Positions 13,695-57,080 of a stretch of DNA of 64,000 nt are shown here, piece by piece. Origin of the DNA: Methylacidiphilales bacterium (GTDB taxonomy: Bacteria; Verrucomicrobiota; Verrucomicrobiia; Methylacidiphilales; UBA1321); the NCBI GenBank assembly GCA_026225555.1, contig JAMFSY010000114.1:110451-174450 (forward strand). Reading direction: 5' to 3'. The notes beneath the pieces were generated by a model. It was not told where the DNA came from. It saw only the letters and a list, made by a program, of their open reading frames with translations, and did no database searches. A program made the translations under genes and the position numbers. Numbering within the stretch: the stretch's first letter is position 1; every line of letters begins with the position of its first letter.

Positions 13695-13721
13695 TCAGGT
13701 TTTTCCCGGGTGTACCGATGA
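13695..13721 (+). promoter_or_regulatory. Candidate sigma28 promoter for flagellin (TCAGGTTT-N11-ACCGATGA)
   Basis: tcaggttt ttcccgggtgt accgatga, consensus TAAAGTTT-N11-GCCGATAA. Confidence 0.6.
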
Positions 13722-13750
13722 AGCCTTTAGACCGGCATGATGTCGGTCCC

Positions 13751-13767
13751 AGGACGGATGGAGTCCT
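13751..13767 (+). promoter_or_regulatory. Candidate CsrA-binding hairpin in flagellin 5' leader
   Basis: AGGAC-GGATGGA-GTCCT: 5-bp stem, GGA/AUGGA motifs in the loop. Confidence 0.5.
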
Positions 13768-13839
13768 GCACAAAAACCCATCGTCCGGTAACCCCGGAAA
13801 GTTGCATGATGCGACTTCGATATAGGAAAGGAAATCCAT

Positions 13840-14649
13840 ATGTCAGTTATTGGCTATAATAGTGCGGCAGTTAATGCGGCGTTTTACCTGAATCAGAACA
13901 CGATGAATTTGAATTCATCGATCCAGCGGCTCGCCTCGGGCAGCCGCCTGGCGAACCCGACAGATGATGCGGCCGGAGTGGCCGTAAGTGGTAATTTGGA
14001 TGCTCGCGTCGGACGGCTGACCGCGGCTTCCCAAGGTGCGCAGAACGTCGTCTCGTTTGCCCAAACGACCGACGGCTTCCTGAGCACCATTCAGCAGCAG
14101 TTGACTCGCATGAGTGAGCTGGCCCAGAGCGCAACCAACGGCGCCTTTGGATCATCCGATCGTGCGAATTACGCTACTGAATTTAACACGCTCAAGACGC
14201 AGATCGACAACATCGCCACGAACGCGAGCTTCAACGGTAGCAGCTTGTTTACCGCCGGCAGCGTGAGTGTTGCGATTGACTCGGCTGGCAATACCGATTC
14301 GTTTACGACCTCCACCGTGGGGAATACGACGAGTCTCGGCATTGACAGCACCACCATCGATACCACGACAGCGGCCGATGCAGCCATCGCCGCGCTGAGC
14401 ACGGCGATTACTTCGCTGACCAGCCGTCGCGCTTCGGTGAATGCGGACATCTCCAAGTTCAACTTCTACGTTCAGAACATCGCGACCGAATCGACGAACG
14501 TGCAAGCCGCGAACTCCCGCATCAAGGACGTTGATGTGGCGACGGAAAGCACCAACATGGCGAAGAACAACATTCTCCTCCAGGCCAGCACCTCCATGCT
14601 TGCCCAGGCGAATTCTTCCCAGCAGGCCATGCTGACGCTCCTCAAATAA
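13840..14649 (+). CDS. fliC: Flagellin (short, 269 aa)
   Basis: N-terminal LNQNTMNLNSSIQRLASGSRLANPTDDAAGVAVSGNL and C-terminal ATESTNMAKNNILLQASTSMLAQANSSQQAMLTLLK flagellin D0/D1 signatures. Confidence 0.95.
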   Translation: MSVIGYNSAAVNAAFYLNQNTMNLNSSIQRLASGSRLANPTDDAAGVAVSGNLDARVGRLTAASQGAQNVVSFAQTTDGFLSTIQQQLTRMSELAQSATNGAFGSSDRANYATEFNTLKTQIDNIATNASFNGSSLFTAGSVSVAIDSAGNTDSFTTSTVGNTTSLGIDSTTIDTTTAADAAIAALSTAITSLTSRRASVNADISKFNFYVQNIATESTNVQAANSRIKDVDVATESTNMAKNNILLQASTSMLAQANSSQQAMLTLLK

Positions 14650-43255: not shown

Positions 43256-45336
43256 TGAATAAGGGATTTAGTTGGGAACAGCTTATTCGCCGGGGCAATT
43301 TGCTGTTTAGCGTCGGCATGATCGGCATCGTCTTCATCCTCGTCCTGCCTTTGCCGACCTGGATGATCGACGTCCTGCTCAGCCTAAGCATCGCGATCTC
43401 GGTTCTGATCATCATGTTGATCTCGAACATCCGCCGGCCGACCGATTTCAGCGTATTTCCGACCCTGCTTCTTTTCGTCACTCTTTTCCGCCTGGGACTT
43501 AATATCGCCACCACGCGCGCCATTCTCACCCAGGGCGATGCGGGCAGCCTGATCACCGCCTTCGGCCAGTTCGTCGTGCAGGGGAACGTGGTCATCGGCC
43601 TGGTGATTTTCATCATCCTGACGATCATCAATTTCATCGTCATCACCAAGGGCGCGGGACGGGTGGCCGAAGTATCGGCCCGATTTACCCTCGACGCCAT
43701 GCCGGGCAAGCAGATGAGCATCGACGCCGATCTCAATGCCGGAGTCATTTCTGAAAAGGACGCGCGGGATCGCCGCCGGTTCATCGAGAAAGAGGCCGAT
43801 TTCTACGGCGCCATGGATGGCGCGAGCAAATTCGTGCGCGGCGATGCTATGGCGGGAATCCTGATCACGAGCATCAATCTCGTAGGTGGATTTGTCATCG
43901 GCATCCTCCAGATGGGGCTTTCGCCCGCCGACTCCGTGCAGCGGTTTTCCCTTCTGAGCGTGGGTGACGGTTTGATCTCCCAGATCCCGGCGCTGCTGAT
44001 TTCCGCCGCAGCCGGTATCCTGGTGACCCGCTCCGGTTCCGAGGCCGGCCTCGGAGAGGACTTTATGCGTCAGTTGCTGAGCAACTCGCGGACGGTGATG
44101 ATGACCGGCGTGATGCTTTGCGCCATGGTTCTCGTGCCCGGCTTTCCCAAGCTGATCCTCCTGATCATGGGCGCGATTTTCATCGGCCTGTCACGCTTGT
44201 TGCCGAAGACCGAGGCCGAAGCACAAGCTGGCACGACCCCTTCCGGCGCGAAAACGGCGGGAGCGAAAGAAGCAGGAGGCAAGCCCGGGGAACCGGCCAC
44301 CTTCATCCCGAAGCCGGGCGAAGTGTTGACTCTGGAAATCGGGCTGGGCCTGTTGCCGCTGATCCAGGGCAACATGCAGAATCTCCTCGACCGCGTGTTG
44401 GCGTTGCGGAAAACGCTCTCCCAGGAGATGGGCGTCACCATTCCGCCGATTACGATCCGGGACCAAAGTTCCCTTGGCGCGCATCGCTATCAATTACTTT
44501 TGCGCGGGCATCCTCTCGCCCATGGCGAAGTCTTTTGCGGTCACCTGATGGCCATGGGGATGGGTAAGGGACAACGCCAGTTGCGCGGGCGCGAGACCAT
44601 TGAACCGGCCTTCGGCATGCCCGCGGTCTGGATCGTCGAGGCAGAACGGCGTGAGGCGGAGAAGGCCGGTTACGTGGTCATTGATCCGCTCACGGTCATG
44701 ATCACGCATCTCAGCGAAATGCTCAAACGTCACCTCGGCGAGATGATCTCACGCCAGGATGTGCAGGACCTCCTCAATCGCCTCAAGGAGTCCAACCAGG
44801 CGGTGGTTCAGGAGCTTGGCCAGCTTCAGATCAGCGTCGGCGTGGTGCAGCGCATTCTGCAGAATTTGTTGCGTGAAGGTGTCTCGGTGCGGGAGCTTTC
44901 CGTGATCCTGGAACGGCTCTGCGACCAATACCCCTATACGAAAAATATCGACGAACTGAGCGAGGCCTGCCGTCGCGCCCTTCACCTGGAGATCGCCCGC
45001 CAGTTGGATTCCGAGGACGAGAAACTGAAGGTTATCACTCTGCATCCCGATATCGAACAGCGGGTGATCGAAAGCGTCCGTCAGATGCCGCAGGAAGTCG
45101 TCCTCGTGCTTGATCCCGCGCTGGCCGGTCACATCCACGCGGAGTTGAAGAAGGGCATCCAGGCAATGTCCGGTTCGGGACGTCCGCCCACCCTGCTTTG
45201 CTCGCCCGCCATCCGCCTCGGGTTGAAGAAATTCTTCGAGGACAGTTTCCGGCTCCTGAAGATTTTCGCTTACAACGAAATTTCGCCCCAGCTCAAGCTT
45301 GAGCCGGTTTATACCATCGTCCCGGCGAAGGTCTGA
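43255..45336 (+). CDS. flhA: Flagellar export protein FlhA
   Basis: RPTDFSVFPTLLLFVTLFRLGLNIATTRAIL...DAMPGKQMSIDADLNAGVISEKDARDRR FHIPEP signature. Confidence 0.98.
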   Translation: MNKGFSWEQLIRRGNLLFSVGMIGIVFILVLPLPTWMIDVLLSLSIAISVLIIMLISNIRRPTDFSVFPTLLLFVTLFRLGLNIATTRAILTQGDAGSLITAFGQFVVQGNVVIGLVIFIILTIINFIVITKGAGRVAEVSARFTLDAMPGKQMSIDADLNAGVISEKDARDRRRFIEKEADFYGAMDGASKFVRGDAMAGILITSINLVGGFVIGILQMGLSPADSVQRFSLLSVGDGLISQIPALLISAAAGILVTRSGSEAGLGEDFMRQLLSNSRTVMMTGVMLCAMVLVPGFPKLILLIMGAIFIGLSRLLPKTEAEAQAGTTPSGAKTAGAKEAGGKPGEPATFIPKPGEVLTLEIGLGLLPLIQGNMQNLLDRVLALRKTLSQEMGVTIPPITIRDQSSLGAHRYQLLLRGHPLAHGEVFCGHLMAMGMGKGQRQLRGRETIEPAFGMPAVWIVEAERREAEKAGYVVIDPLTVMITHLSEMLKRHLGEMISRQDVQDLLNRLKESNQAVVQELGQLQISVGVVQRILQNLLREGVSVRELSVILERLCDQYPYTKNIDELSEACRRALHLEIARQLDSEDEKLKVITLHPDIEQRVIESVRQMPQEVVLVLDPALAGHIHAELKKGIQAMSGSGRPPTLLCSPAIRLGLKKFFEDSFRLLKIFAYNEISPQLKLEPVYTIVPAKV

Positions 45337-45945: not shown

Positions 45946-46719
45946 ATGATCGCACTATTACAGGAACAGCCGCAGGAAATGACGACCGATGTCGTCGCCT
46001 TCAATGAAGGGACAGACCGTGAGGAAAAAATCCAGGGTCTTCTCTTTTTGGTTCAACACATCGCGGGACGCCTGGTCGCCCGGCTTCCCTCACACATCTC
46101 GAAAGAGGACCTAGTCAGCGCCGGCGTCGTCGGTCTGATCGACGCGGTGGATCGCTACAACGGAGCGAAGGGTTGCAGCCTCAAGACCTACAGCAGCCTG
46201 CGAATTCACGGTGCCATGGTGGATGAATTGCGCAGCCAGGATTGGATTCCCCGCACGGTGCATCGCGACGAAAAGATTTACGATCGGGCGGCGGAAAAAC
46301 TGAGCCAGCAGTTCGGCCGCGAGGCTTCCACGGAGGAAATCCGGCAAGAGCTTGGCATGACGCCCCAGGCGTTCCAGCTCTTCGCGGAACGGACGCAGAC
46401 CATCACCACGTTTTCGCTCAATGAATCCTGCTCCGACGAGGATGGCAACGCCATCGACCGCGGCGAGATCATGCCCAACCCCGATGCGCCCACGCCTTTC
46501 GATGAAGTGGTGCGGGAGGAAGACCGGGCCATGTTGCGCGAGGAATTAAACCGCCTGCCCCGGGCCGAGAAGCTCGTGCTGTCGCTTTACTATATGGAGG
46601 ACCTTCGCCTGAAGGAGATCGCGCAGATTCTCGAAGTCAGCGAATCGCGGGTCTCCCAAATTCACACCGAGGCGCTGAAACGCCTGAACGCTTCCATGCG
46701 CAAAGCACGGAACAGCTAA
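45946..46719 (+). CDS. fliA: RNA polymerase sigma factor FliA (sigma28)
   Basis: AARVVGLIDAVDRYNGAKG-type sigma region 2 (SAGVVGLIDAVDRYN), YSSLRIHGAMVDELRSQDWIPRTV, LYYMEDLRLKEIAQILEVSESRVSQIHTEALKRL. Confidence 0.96.
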   Translation: MIALLQEQPQEMTTDVVAFNEGTDREEKIQGLLFLVQHIAGRLVARLPSHISKEDLVSAGVVGLIDAVDRYNGAKGCSLKTYSSLRIHGAMVDELRSQDWIPRTVHRDEKIYDRAAEKLSQQFGREASTEEIRQELGMTPQAFQLFAERTQTITTFSLNESCSDEDGNAIDRGEIMPNPDAPTPFDEVVREEDRAMLREELNRLPRAEKLVLSLYYMEDLRLKEIAQILEVSESRVSQIHTEALKRLNASMRKARNS

Positions 46720-56375: not shown

Positions 56376-56813
56376 ATGACTACCACAACCGACGACCTCA
56401 CGGTGGAGCAGGCGCTTCACGAAAAAATCATTCATTTTCCCTCCGGCCTTCCGGGCTTTCCCGCCGACCGGGAATTCCTCATGGCGCAGCAGCCGGAGGA
56501 GCGGCCCTTCGCCTGGATGCAATCGATCAACGATCCCGAACTGACTTTCGCCGTGGTCGATGCCTATTCCTGGATCAAGGATTTCACCCTGGAAGTCGAT
56601 GATGCCGTGCTCGAGGAAATGGGATCGATGGATCCCATGGACTACGCCGTTTATTTCATTCTTCGCATTGAGAAGAAGGACAATCGGACCACGCTTCACG
56701 CCAAACCCAACGCGCCCGTGCTCGTCAATGTGCGAAATCGGCAGGCCCGGCAGGTCGTTGTCCCGCTCGACTCCACCATGGAGCAAGCGGAAGCCCTTTG
56801 CCTTCAACTTTAA
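56376..56813 (+). CDS. fliW: Flagellar assembly factor FliW
   Basis: IIHFPSGLPGFPADREFLMA..PFAWMQSINDPELTFAVVD..NVRNRQARQVVV. Confidence 0.94.
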   Translation: MTTTTDDLTVEQALHEKIIHFPSGLPGFPADREFLMAQQPEERPFAWMQSINDPELTFAVVDAYSWIKDFTLEVDDAVLEEMGSMDPMDYAVYFILRIEKKDNRTTLHAKPNAPVLVNVRNRQARQVVVPLDSTMEQAEALCLQL

Positions 56814-56831: not shown

Positions 56832-57080
56832 ATGCTCGTCCTAAGTCGCAAGGTTGGCGAGTCGATCAAACTCGCCGACGATATCGAAATCACCGTCCTC
56901 GCCGTCGATAACCAGCGGGTCCGCCTGGGTATTCGCGCGCCTCGCCACATTGAGGTTCGCCGCAGCGGTCCCGAGGTCAACGTCAGCGAAGACAATCGCG
57001 AAGCGGCCGTGCCGGCCGACGCGACCGACAAGACAACTCTTCTTCGCCAGGCAGCTTCCGCGAAAAAGAAGCAGGACTAG
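56832..57080 (+). CDS. csrA: Carbon storage regulator / flagellin translation regulator CsrA
   Basis: MLVLSRKVGESIKLADDIEITVLAVDNQRVRLGIRAPRHIEVRR. Confidence 0.98.
   Translation: MLVLSRKVGESIKLADDIEITVLAVDNQRVRLGIRAPRHIEVRRSGPEVNVSEDNREAAVPADATDKTTLLRQAASAKKKQD

Follow-up and report, generated by a model that had tools for sequence, protein, structure and literature searches.

CsrA and FliW in described flagellin systems

CsrA–FliW control of flagellin synthesis is known from Firmicutes and Campylobacter. In the flaA leader of Campylobacter jejuni the two-hairpin CsrA arrangement is proven, with two ANGGA stem-loops of which the second lies over the ribosome-binding site (PMC4894983). This leader is 45 nt long and its GGA sites are 21 nt apart. 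Replacement of GGA by UGA in its first hairpin raises the Kd 4–10 fold and removes CsrA repression (PMC4894983). The GGA triplet is recognised through the protein backbone of CsrA, and in RsmE the R6–E46 salt bridge has been termed indispensable (PMC6692469). FliW has also been reported to bind the hag leader of Bacillus subtilis, for reasons that were left unexplained (PMC6529632). In the literature searched, judged by titles, abstracts and term counts, CsrA, FliW and Verrucomicrobia are brought together only in passing.

The window (the whole 64,000-nt stretch of DNA analysed here) shares with the B. subtilis hag system a sigma28-type promoter, a flagellin leader, a GGA at the ribosome-binding site with another GGA upstream, and adjacent fliW and csrA genes. 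Unlike hag, it has a 7-nt loop in the upstream hairpin (h2), two further hairpins with an AUGAU pentaloop, and a CsrA protein without E46; the likeness and the differences are both read from sequence. With C. jejuni flaA it has in common two ANGGA stem-loops, the second over the ribosome-binding site, and a structure backed by compensatory changes, whereas its leader is ~110 nt long, contains three additional hairpins and has its GGA sites spaced by 67 nt. The observations used below are the sequence itself, predicted folds, conservation and covariation in relatives, and gene co-occurrence. They make it probable that, as in hag and flaA, CsrA acts on the ribosome-binding-site loop and h2 to repress the window flagellin, and that FliW relieves this repression.

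Organization of the flagellin leader

The flagellin gene (13840–14649, on the forward strand, as are the promoter, the leader hairpins, fliW and csrA; matches to the Flagellin_N and Flagellin_C domains) is preceded by a sigma28 (FliA)-type promoter, TCAGG-N15-CCGAT, at 13695–13719, which is also present in the sister genome G006. The first-pass annotation had placed a fliC promoter at 13695–13721 and a leader of ~110 nt downstream of it. Both proposals hold; the transcript start is predicted near 13727–13731, and the open reading frame at 13840 is that of flagellin. The promoter pattern was found upstream of 45 of the 94 flagellin genes of the class (shuffle expectation 1.2), and fliA lies within the window at 45946–46719.

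Predicted folding makes the leader more stable than its shuffled versions (z -2.7) and divides it into four hairpins (h1–h4) and a ribosome-binding-site hairpin. Besides h2, which had been reported before, three stable hairpins were detected, at 13730–13748 (h1), 13784–13798 (h3) and 13799–13817 (h4). The first of these, h1 (GACCGGC-AUGAU-GUCGGUC; stem pair probability 0.99), lies at the 5' end of the leader; in the sister genome its stem is maintained by compensatory changes, around a loop that reads ACCAA. The loop of h3 (UCCGG-UAACC-CCGGA; pair probability 0.77–0.91), a hairpin also found in the sister genome, is devoid of GGA. The last one, h4 (AAGUUGC-AUGAU-GCGACUU), carries a pentaloop identical to that of h1 and ends 22 nt before the start codon.

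The upstream hairpin h2 and the ribosome-binding-site hairpin

The proposed upstream CsrA site, h2 (CAGGAC-GGAUGGA-GUCCUG, 13750–13768), is composed as originally described, of AGGAC (13751–13755), GGATGGA (13756–13762) and GTCCT (13763–13767), and its stem is extended by one outer C-G pair (13750/13768). The predicted pair probability of the stem is 0.71–0.76, and the GGA of the loop, which is part of ATGGA at 13758–13762, is predicted to be 76–95% unpaired. A 5-bp hairpin with an ANGGA loop arose in 1.3% of dinucleotide-shuffled window leaders and, by the same definition, in 1.2% of 111-nt segments drawn at random from the window; a hairpin with any GGA in its loop arose in 8%. Taken alone, h2 is weak evidence for CsrA control.

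The loop of h2 is 7 nt long, with GGA abutting the stem, and thus departs from the ANGGAN hexaloop. Of the close relatives, the sister genome alone encodes a flagellin (77% protein identity), and it keeps CAGGACGG..GGAGUCCUG, with 17 of the 19 bases of h2 identical. The loop there reads GGUCGGA, i.e. AUGGA is replaced by UCGGA, with the A of ANGGA lost and the GGA retained. Conservation of the hairpin, which the first-pass annotation had suggested as a check, therefore extends to the stem and the loop GGA, but not to ANGGA. Covariation is uninformative for h2, as just two genomes carry this hairpin and their stems do not differ. The leader found throughout the class (see below) has no direct counterpart of h2. 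The ANGGAN hexaloop hairpin of the high-affinity CsrA site (CANGGANG in an apical hexaloop) is present in class relatives, but none with a 4-bp stem was found in the window leader. Elsewhere in the window, a scan for ANGGAN and ANGAN hairpins gave only scattered single matches. The earlier proposal of a CsrA site at the AUGGA hairpin is thus sound with respect to the hairpin itself, while loop length, the sister ANGGA and the missing class counterpart make it a less certain CsrA site. On balance, we lean slightly towards h2 being a true CsrA site.

The proposed second CsrA site is the ribosome-binding-site hairpin (13819–13845), with AAGGA (13828–13832) in the loop and the start codon in the stem; the GGA is predicted to be unpaired (>0.9) and the AUG paired. 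At the ribosome-binding site ggaAAGGAAAucc is common to the window and the sister genome, and AAGGA occupies the loop in most near relatives. The GGA-rich stretch ATAGGAAAGGAAAT, previously assigned to 13823–13836, is present, one base off, at 13822–13835. As in leaders of the hag/flaA type, an ANGGA is thus located in a predicted loop overlapping the ribosome-binding site. The second, upstream ANGGA hairpin of such leaders is represented by the AUGGA in the h2 loop, with its atypical length and its altered sequence in the sister genome.

csrA, fliW and their distribution

The genes fliW (56376–56813; PF02623, E 4e-26) and csrA (56832–57080; PF02599, E 4e-19), the latter being the only copy in the genome, are located 42 kb from the flagellin gene, in agreement with the first-pass annotation. 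The encoded CsrA keeps the RNA-binding residues L4, R6, A36 and R44, as well as P37, and carries R29. Codons 44–47 (56961–56972) specify R44-S45-G46-P47, so that G46 replaces E46, a residue shared by the other 32 verrucomicrobial CsrA proteins in the comparison; CsrA of the sister genome has E46. A frameshift does not explain the odd residues 45–48: the reading frame is intact, and the protein can be aligned in-frame with that of the sister genome up to its C-terminus. R29 is found in 12 of 12 CsrA proteins of the window lineage versus 0 of 21 elsewhere, and the lineage proteins also vary at positions 41 (R/K/N/E), 43 (L/V/R), 45 (T/S/A) and 48 (D/A/E). These residue changes could be explained by shared ancestry alone.

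Of the 62 genomes of the order, 10 encode CsrA and 11 encode flagellin, with nine encoding both. In the class (384 genomes), CsrA (86 genomes), FliW (86) and flagellin (96) occur in nearly the same genomes, fliW adjoins csrA, and the two genes are retained almost only alongside flagella. The near-restriction of CsrA to flagellated members of the class suggests that its role there is a dedicated one, and favours the control of flagellin as the function that CsrA had ancestrally.

One genome, G014, contains CsrA and FliW with no flagellin match, at 96% completeness. In several class members (G111, G253, G379, G348 and G249) a flagellin gene without the structured leader lies directly downstream of fliW-csrA; in the first four of these, another flagellin gene of the same genome does carry the structured leader.

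A structured flagellin leader throughout the class

Flagellin upstream regions were collected from ~65 genomes. A textbook ANGGAN hexaloop hairpin (e.g. GGCAUGGAUGCC) was present in 34 of the 52 more distant class leaders that do not follow a csrA gene, versus 0.17 in shuffles, and in many of these leaders GACUC-AUGGAAG-GAGUC lies over the ribosome-binding site. Alignment of 23 leaders revealed four helices, in which 95% of the cells pair, with both-sided changes at 13 of the 19 pairs, values that none of 500 shuffles reached. When the covariance model derived from this alignment (R1) was run over 20 genomes, 21 strong matches were obtained; they are confined to flagellin clusters, and 20 of them lie directly before a flagellin gene. 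Searches with Rfam gave no gathering-score match in the window and nothing at E ≤ 1 in the sequences of 20 relatives. Judged by its covariation, this is a class-wide multi-hairpin flagellin leader with putative CsrA-type sites, which lies outside Rfam.

The remaining strong R1 match is situated between two flagellin genes in G159 (G159:C3:44150-44293); no intact flagellin gene follows it, and it is possibly a decayed copy.

The window leader resembles the class leader in the gene it precedes, in the type of promoter, in the presence of a hairpin immediately before the ribosome-binding site and in having ANGGA at this site. It differs in that R1 gave no match up to E=1 on the window leader (13728–13840) and in that the proximal loop is AUGAU, not ANGGAN; neither leader is represented in Rfam. 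An R1 match at 43808 of the window falls inside a coding region and was dismissed as a chance hit.

AUGAU pentaloop hairpins of the window lineage

In the window, the place of the class-wide CsrA hairpin is taken by h4, whose pentaloop lacks GGA. The same hairpin, with loops AUGAU, ACGAU, AUGAA or AUGAC, was identified in three families of the order and in one neighbouring family (G075), the end of the stem being mostly 17–24 nt before the AUG. Hairpins with an A[ACT]GAN pentaloop occur in 12 of 31 lineage leaders (0.44 in shuffles) versus 1 of 52 leaders outside. In G075 one flagellin gene has AUGAU and another has AGGAU at the corresponding position, and in G085, from a further family, one flagellin gene has AUGAA where its paralogue has AUGGAU. 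Compensatory changes were observed at 7 of 7 pairs of the h4-type stem in 13 aligned leaders; these were chosen by loop pattern and pairing, so that loop invariance and the percentage of paired positions are biased upward. The same hairpins had been recovered in an earlier listing in which the loop was left unspecified.

A model of the lineage pentaloop element (R2) gave a single match in the window genome, to h4 (42.3 bits). The matches of R2 are its own training sequences, and it is the absence of others that is informative: above noise, R2 matched flagellin leaders only, and a genome-wide regulon for the AUGAU hairpin was not found. These comparisons indicate that the AUGAU hairpins are clearly under selection. 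Their position matches that of the canonical CsrA hairpin of the class and thereby suggests a common origin, and the lineage hairpin can be read as the counterpart of the class-wide one from which a single G was lost. It is in the AUGAU hairpins that this leader is new.

A separate GGA hairpin is kept in many lineage leaders; in the window it is h2, G018 and G019 have GUCGG-AAGGAA-CCGAC, and further ones occur elsewhere. Given the effect of the GGA to UGA replacement in C. jejuni and the reading of GGA by the CsrA backbone, AUGAU is expected to be a poor site for ordinary CsrA. The simplest reading is that the GGA contact has moved to h2 and the ribosome-binding site.

Proposed regulation and alternative explanations

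From these data we infer CsrA binding, repression, antagonism by FliW and a role for each hairpin, as follows. Sigma28 would start a flagellin transcript with a structured leader, on which a CsrA dimer would block ribosome entry. One contact of the dimer would be the GGA in the ribosome-binding-site loop (AAGGA, 13828–13832), and the second, upstream contact most likely h2 (AUGGA, 13758–13762). FliW, freed upon flagellin export, would remove CsrA, and translation would resume. The AUGAU hairpins h1 and h4 may derive from the class-wide CsrA hairpin or have taken its place, and may serve either as geometry-setting spacers or as sites that the altered CsrA of the lineage reads. The hag-like CsrA/FliW arrangement put forward in the first-pass annotation is thus well supported by gene co-occurrence, ANGGAN hairpins, covariation and the ribosome-binding-site GGA, h2 being its less certain part. 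Also in its favour are the confinement of strong R1 matches to flagellin clusters, the conservation of h2 in the sister genome, the CsrA residues L4, R6, A36, P37 and R44, and the proven arrangement of C. jejuni flaA. Against CsrA control we counted the 7-nt loop of h2, the loss of ANGGA in the sister genome, the missing R1 match and the loss of E46.

It is possible, although not probable, that CsrA acts at the GGA sites only, and that the AUGAU hairpins have a different binding partner (FliW, an RNase or another RNA-binding protein) or a protective effect on the mRNA. Their strong, position-fixed conservation, seen in flagellin leaders only, would be consistent with this, as would the reported binding of FliW to the hag leader; however, the h4-type position is where the canonical CsrA hairpin is located elsewhere in the class, and no candidate protein was identified.

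We consider it doubtful that CsrA, while controlling the flagellin, has its principal upstream site in h4 (and h1) instead of h2, i.e. that the loop preference has shifted from ANGGAN to the ANGAN pentaloop, accompanied by the CsrA changes at positions 29, 41, 43, 45 and 48. Such a shift would account for the enrichment of A[ACT]GAN hairpins in the lineage, their constant position and fully covarying stem, the AUGAU and AGGAU loops at one place in a single genome, and the confinement of R29 to lineage proteins. It is, however, difficult to reconcile with the backbone recognition of GGA (PMC6692469) and the loss of repression with UGA in C. jejuni flaA (PMC4894983), and with the separate ANGGA hairpin kept in many lineage leaders. 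Moreover, the link with R29 is explicable by common descent, and CsrA of G091 has R29, yet the G091 leader is without an ANGAN hairpin. That CsrA and its leader site changed together, from the near-universal recognition of GGA to an ANGAN pentaloop (AUGAU, AUGAA or ACGAU), to form a natural orthogonal CsrA–RNA pair seems more doubtful still.

It is unlikely that h2 is an ordinary stem with a GGA by chance in a leader whose structure, independently of CsrA, only adjusts the stability of the mRNA or the access of ribosomes. The shuffle frequencies of ANGGA- and GGA-loop hairpins, the loss of AUGGA in the sister genome and the absence of E46, which would favour such a view, are opposed by the retention of 17 of 19 h2 bases, the class-wide ANGGAN hairpins and the preservation of csrA and fliW almost only with flagella.

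Repression of the window flagellin by CsrA at the ribosome-binding-site loop and h2, relieved by FliW, would extend this type of control from Firmicutes and Campylobacter to Verrucomicrobiota, with a class-wide leader that is new to Rfam. The lineage with altered loops may be viewed as a natural experiment on the strictness of GGA recognition.

Two minor observations concern other flagellin sequences. The record CAJCIA010000033.1 bears the title Betaproteobacteria, which looks wrong, since both the flagellin and the contig coordinates agree with those of the sister genome G006, a member of the verrucomicrobial order. The second flagellin genes of G017, G018 and G019 share another conserved leader stretch, TTGGCAYGRCCGGTGCT, located ~85–110 nt before the start codon.
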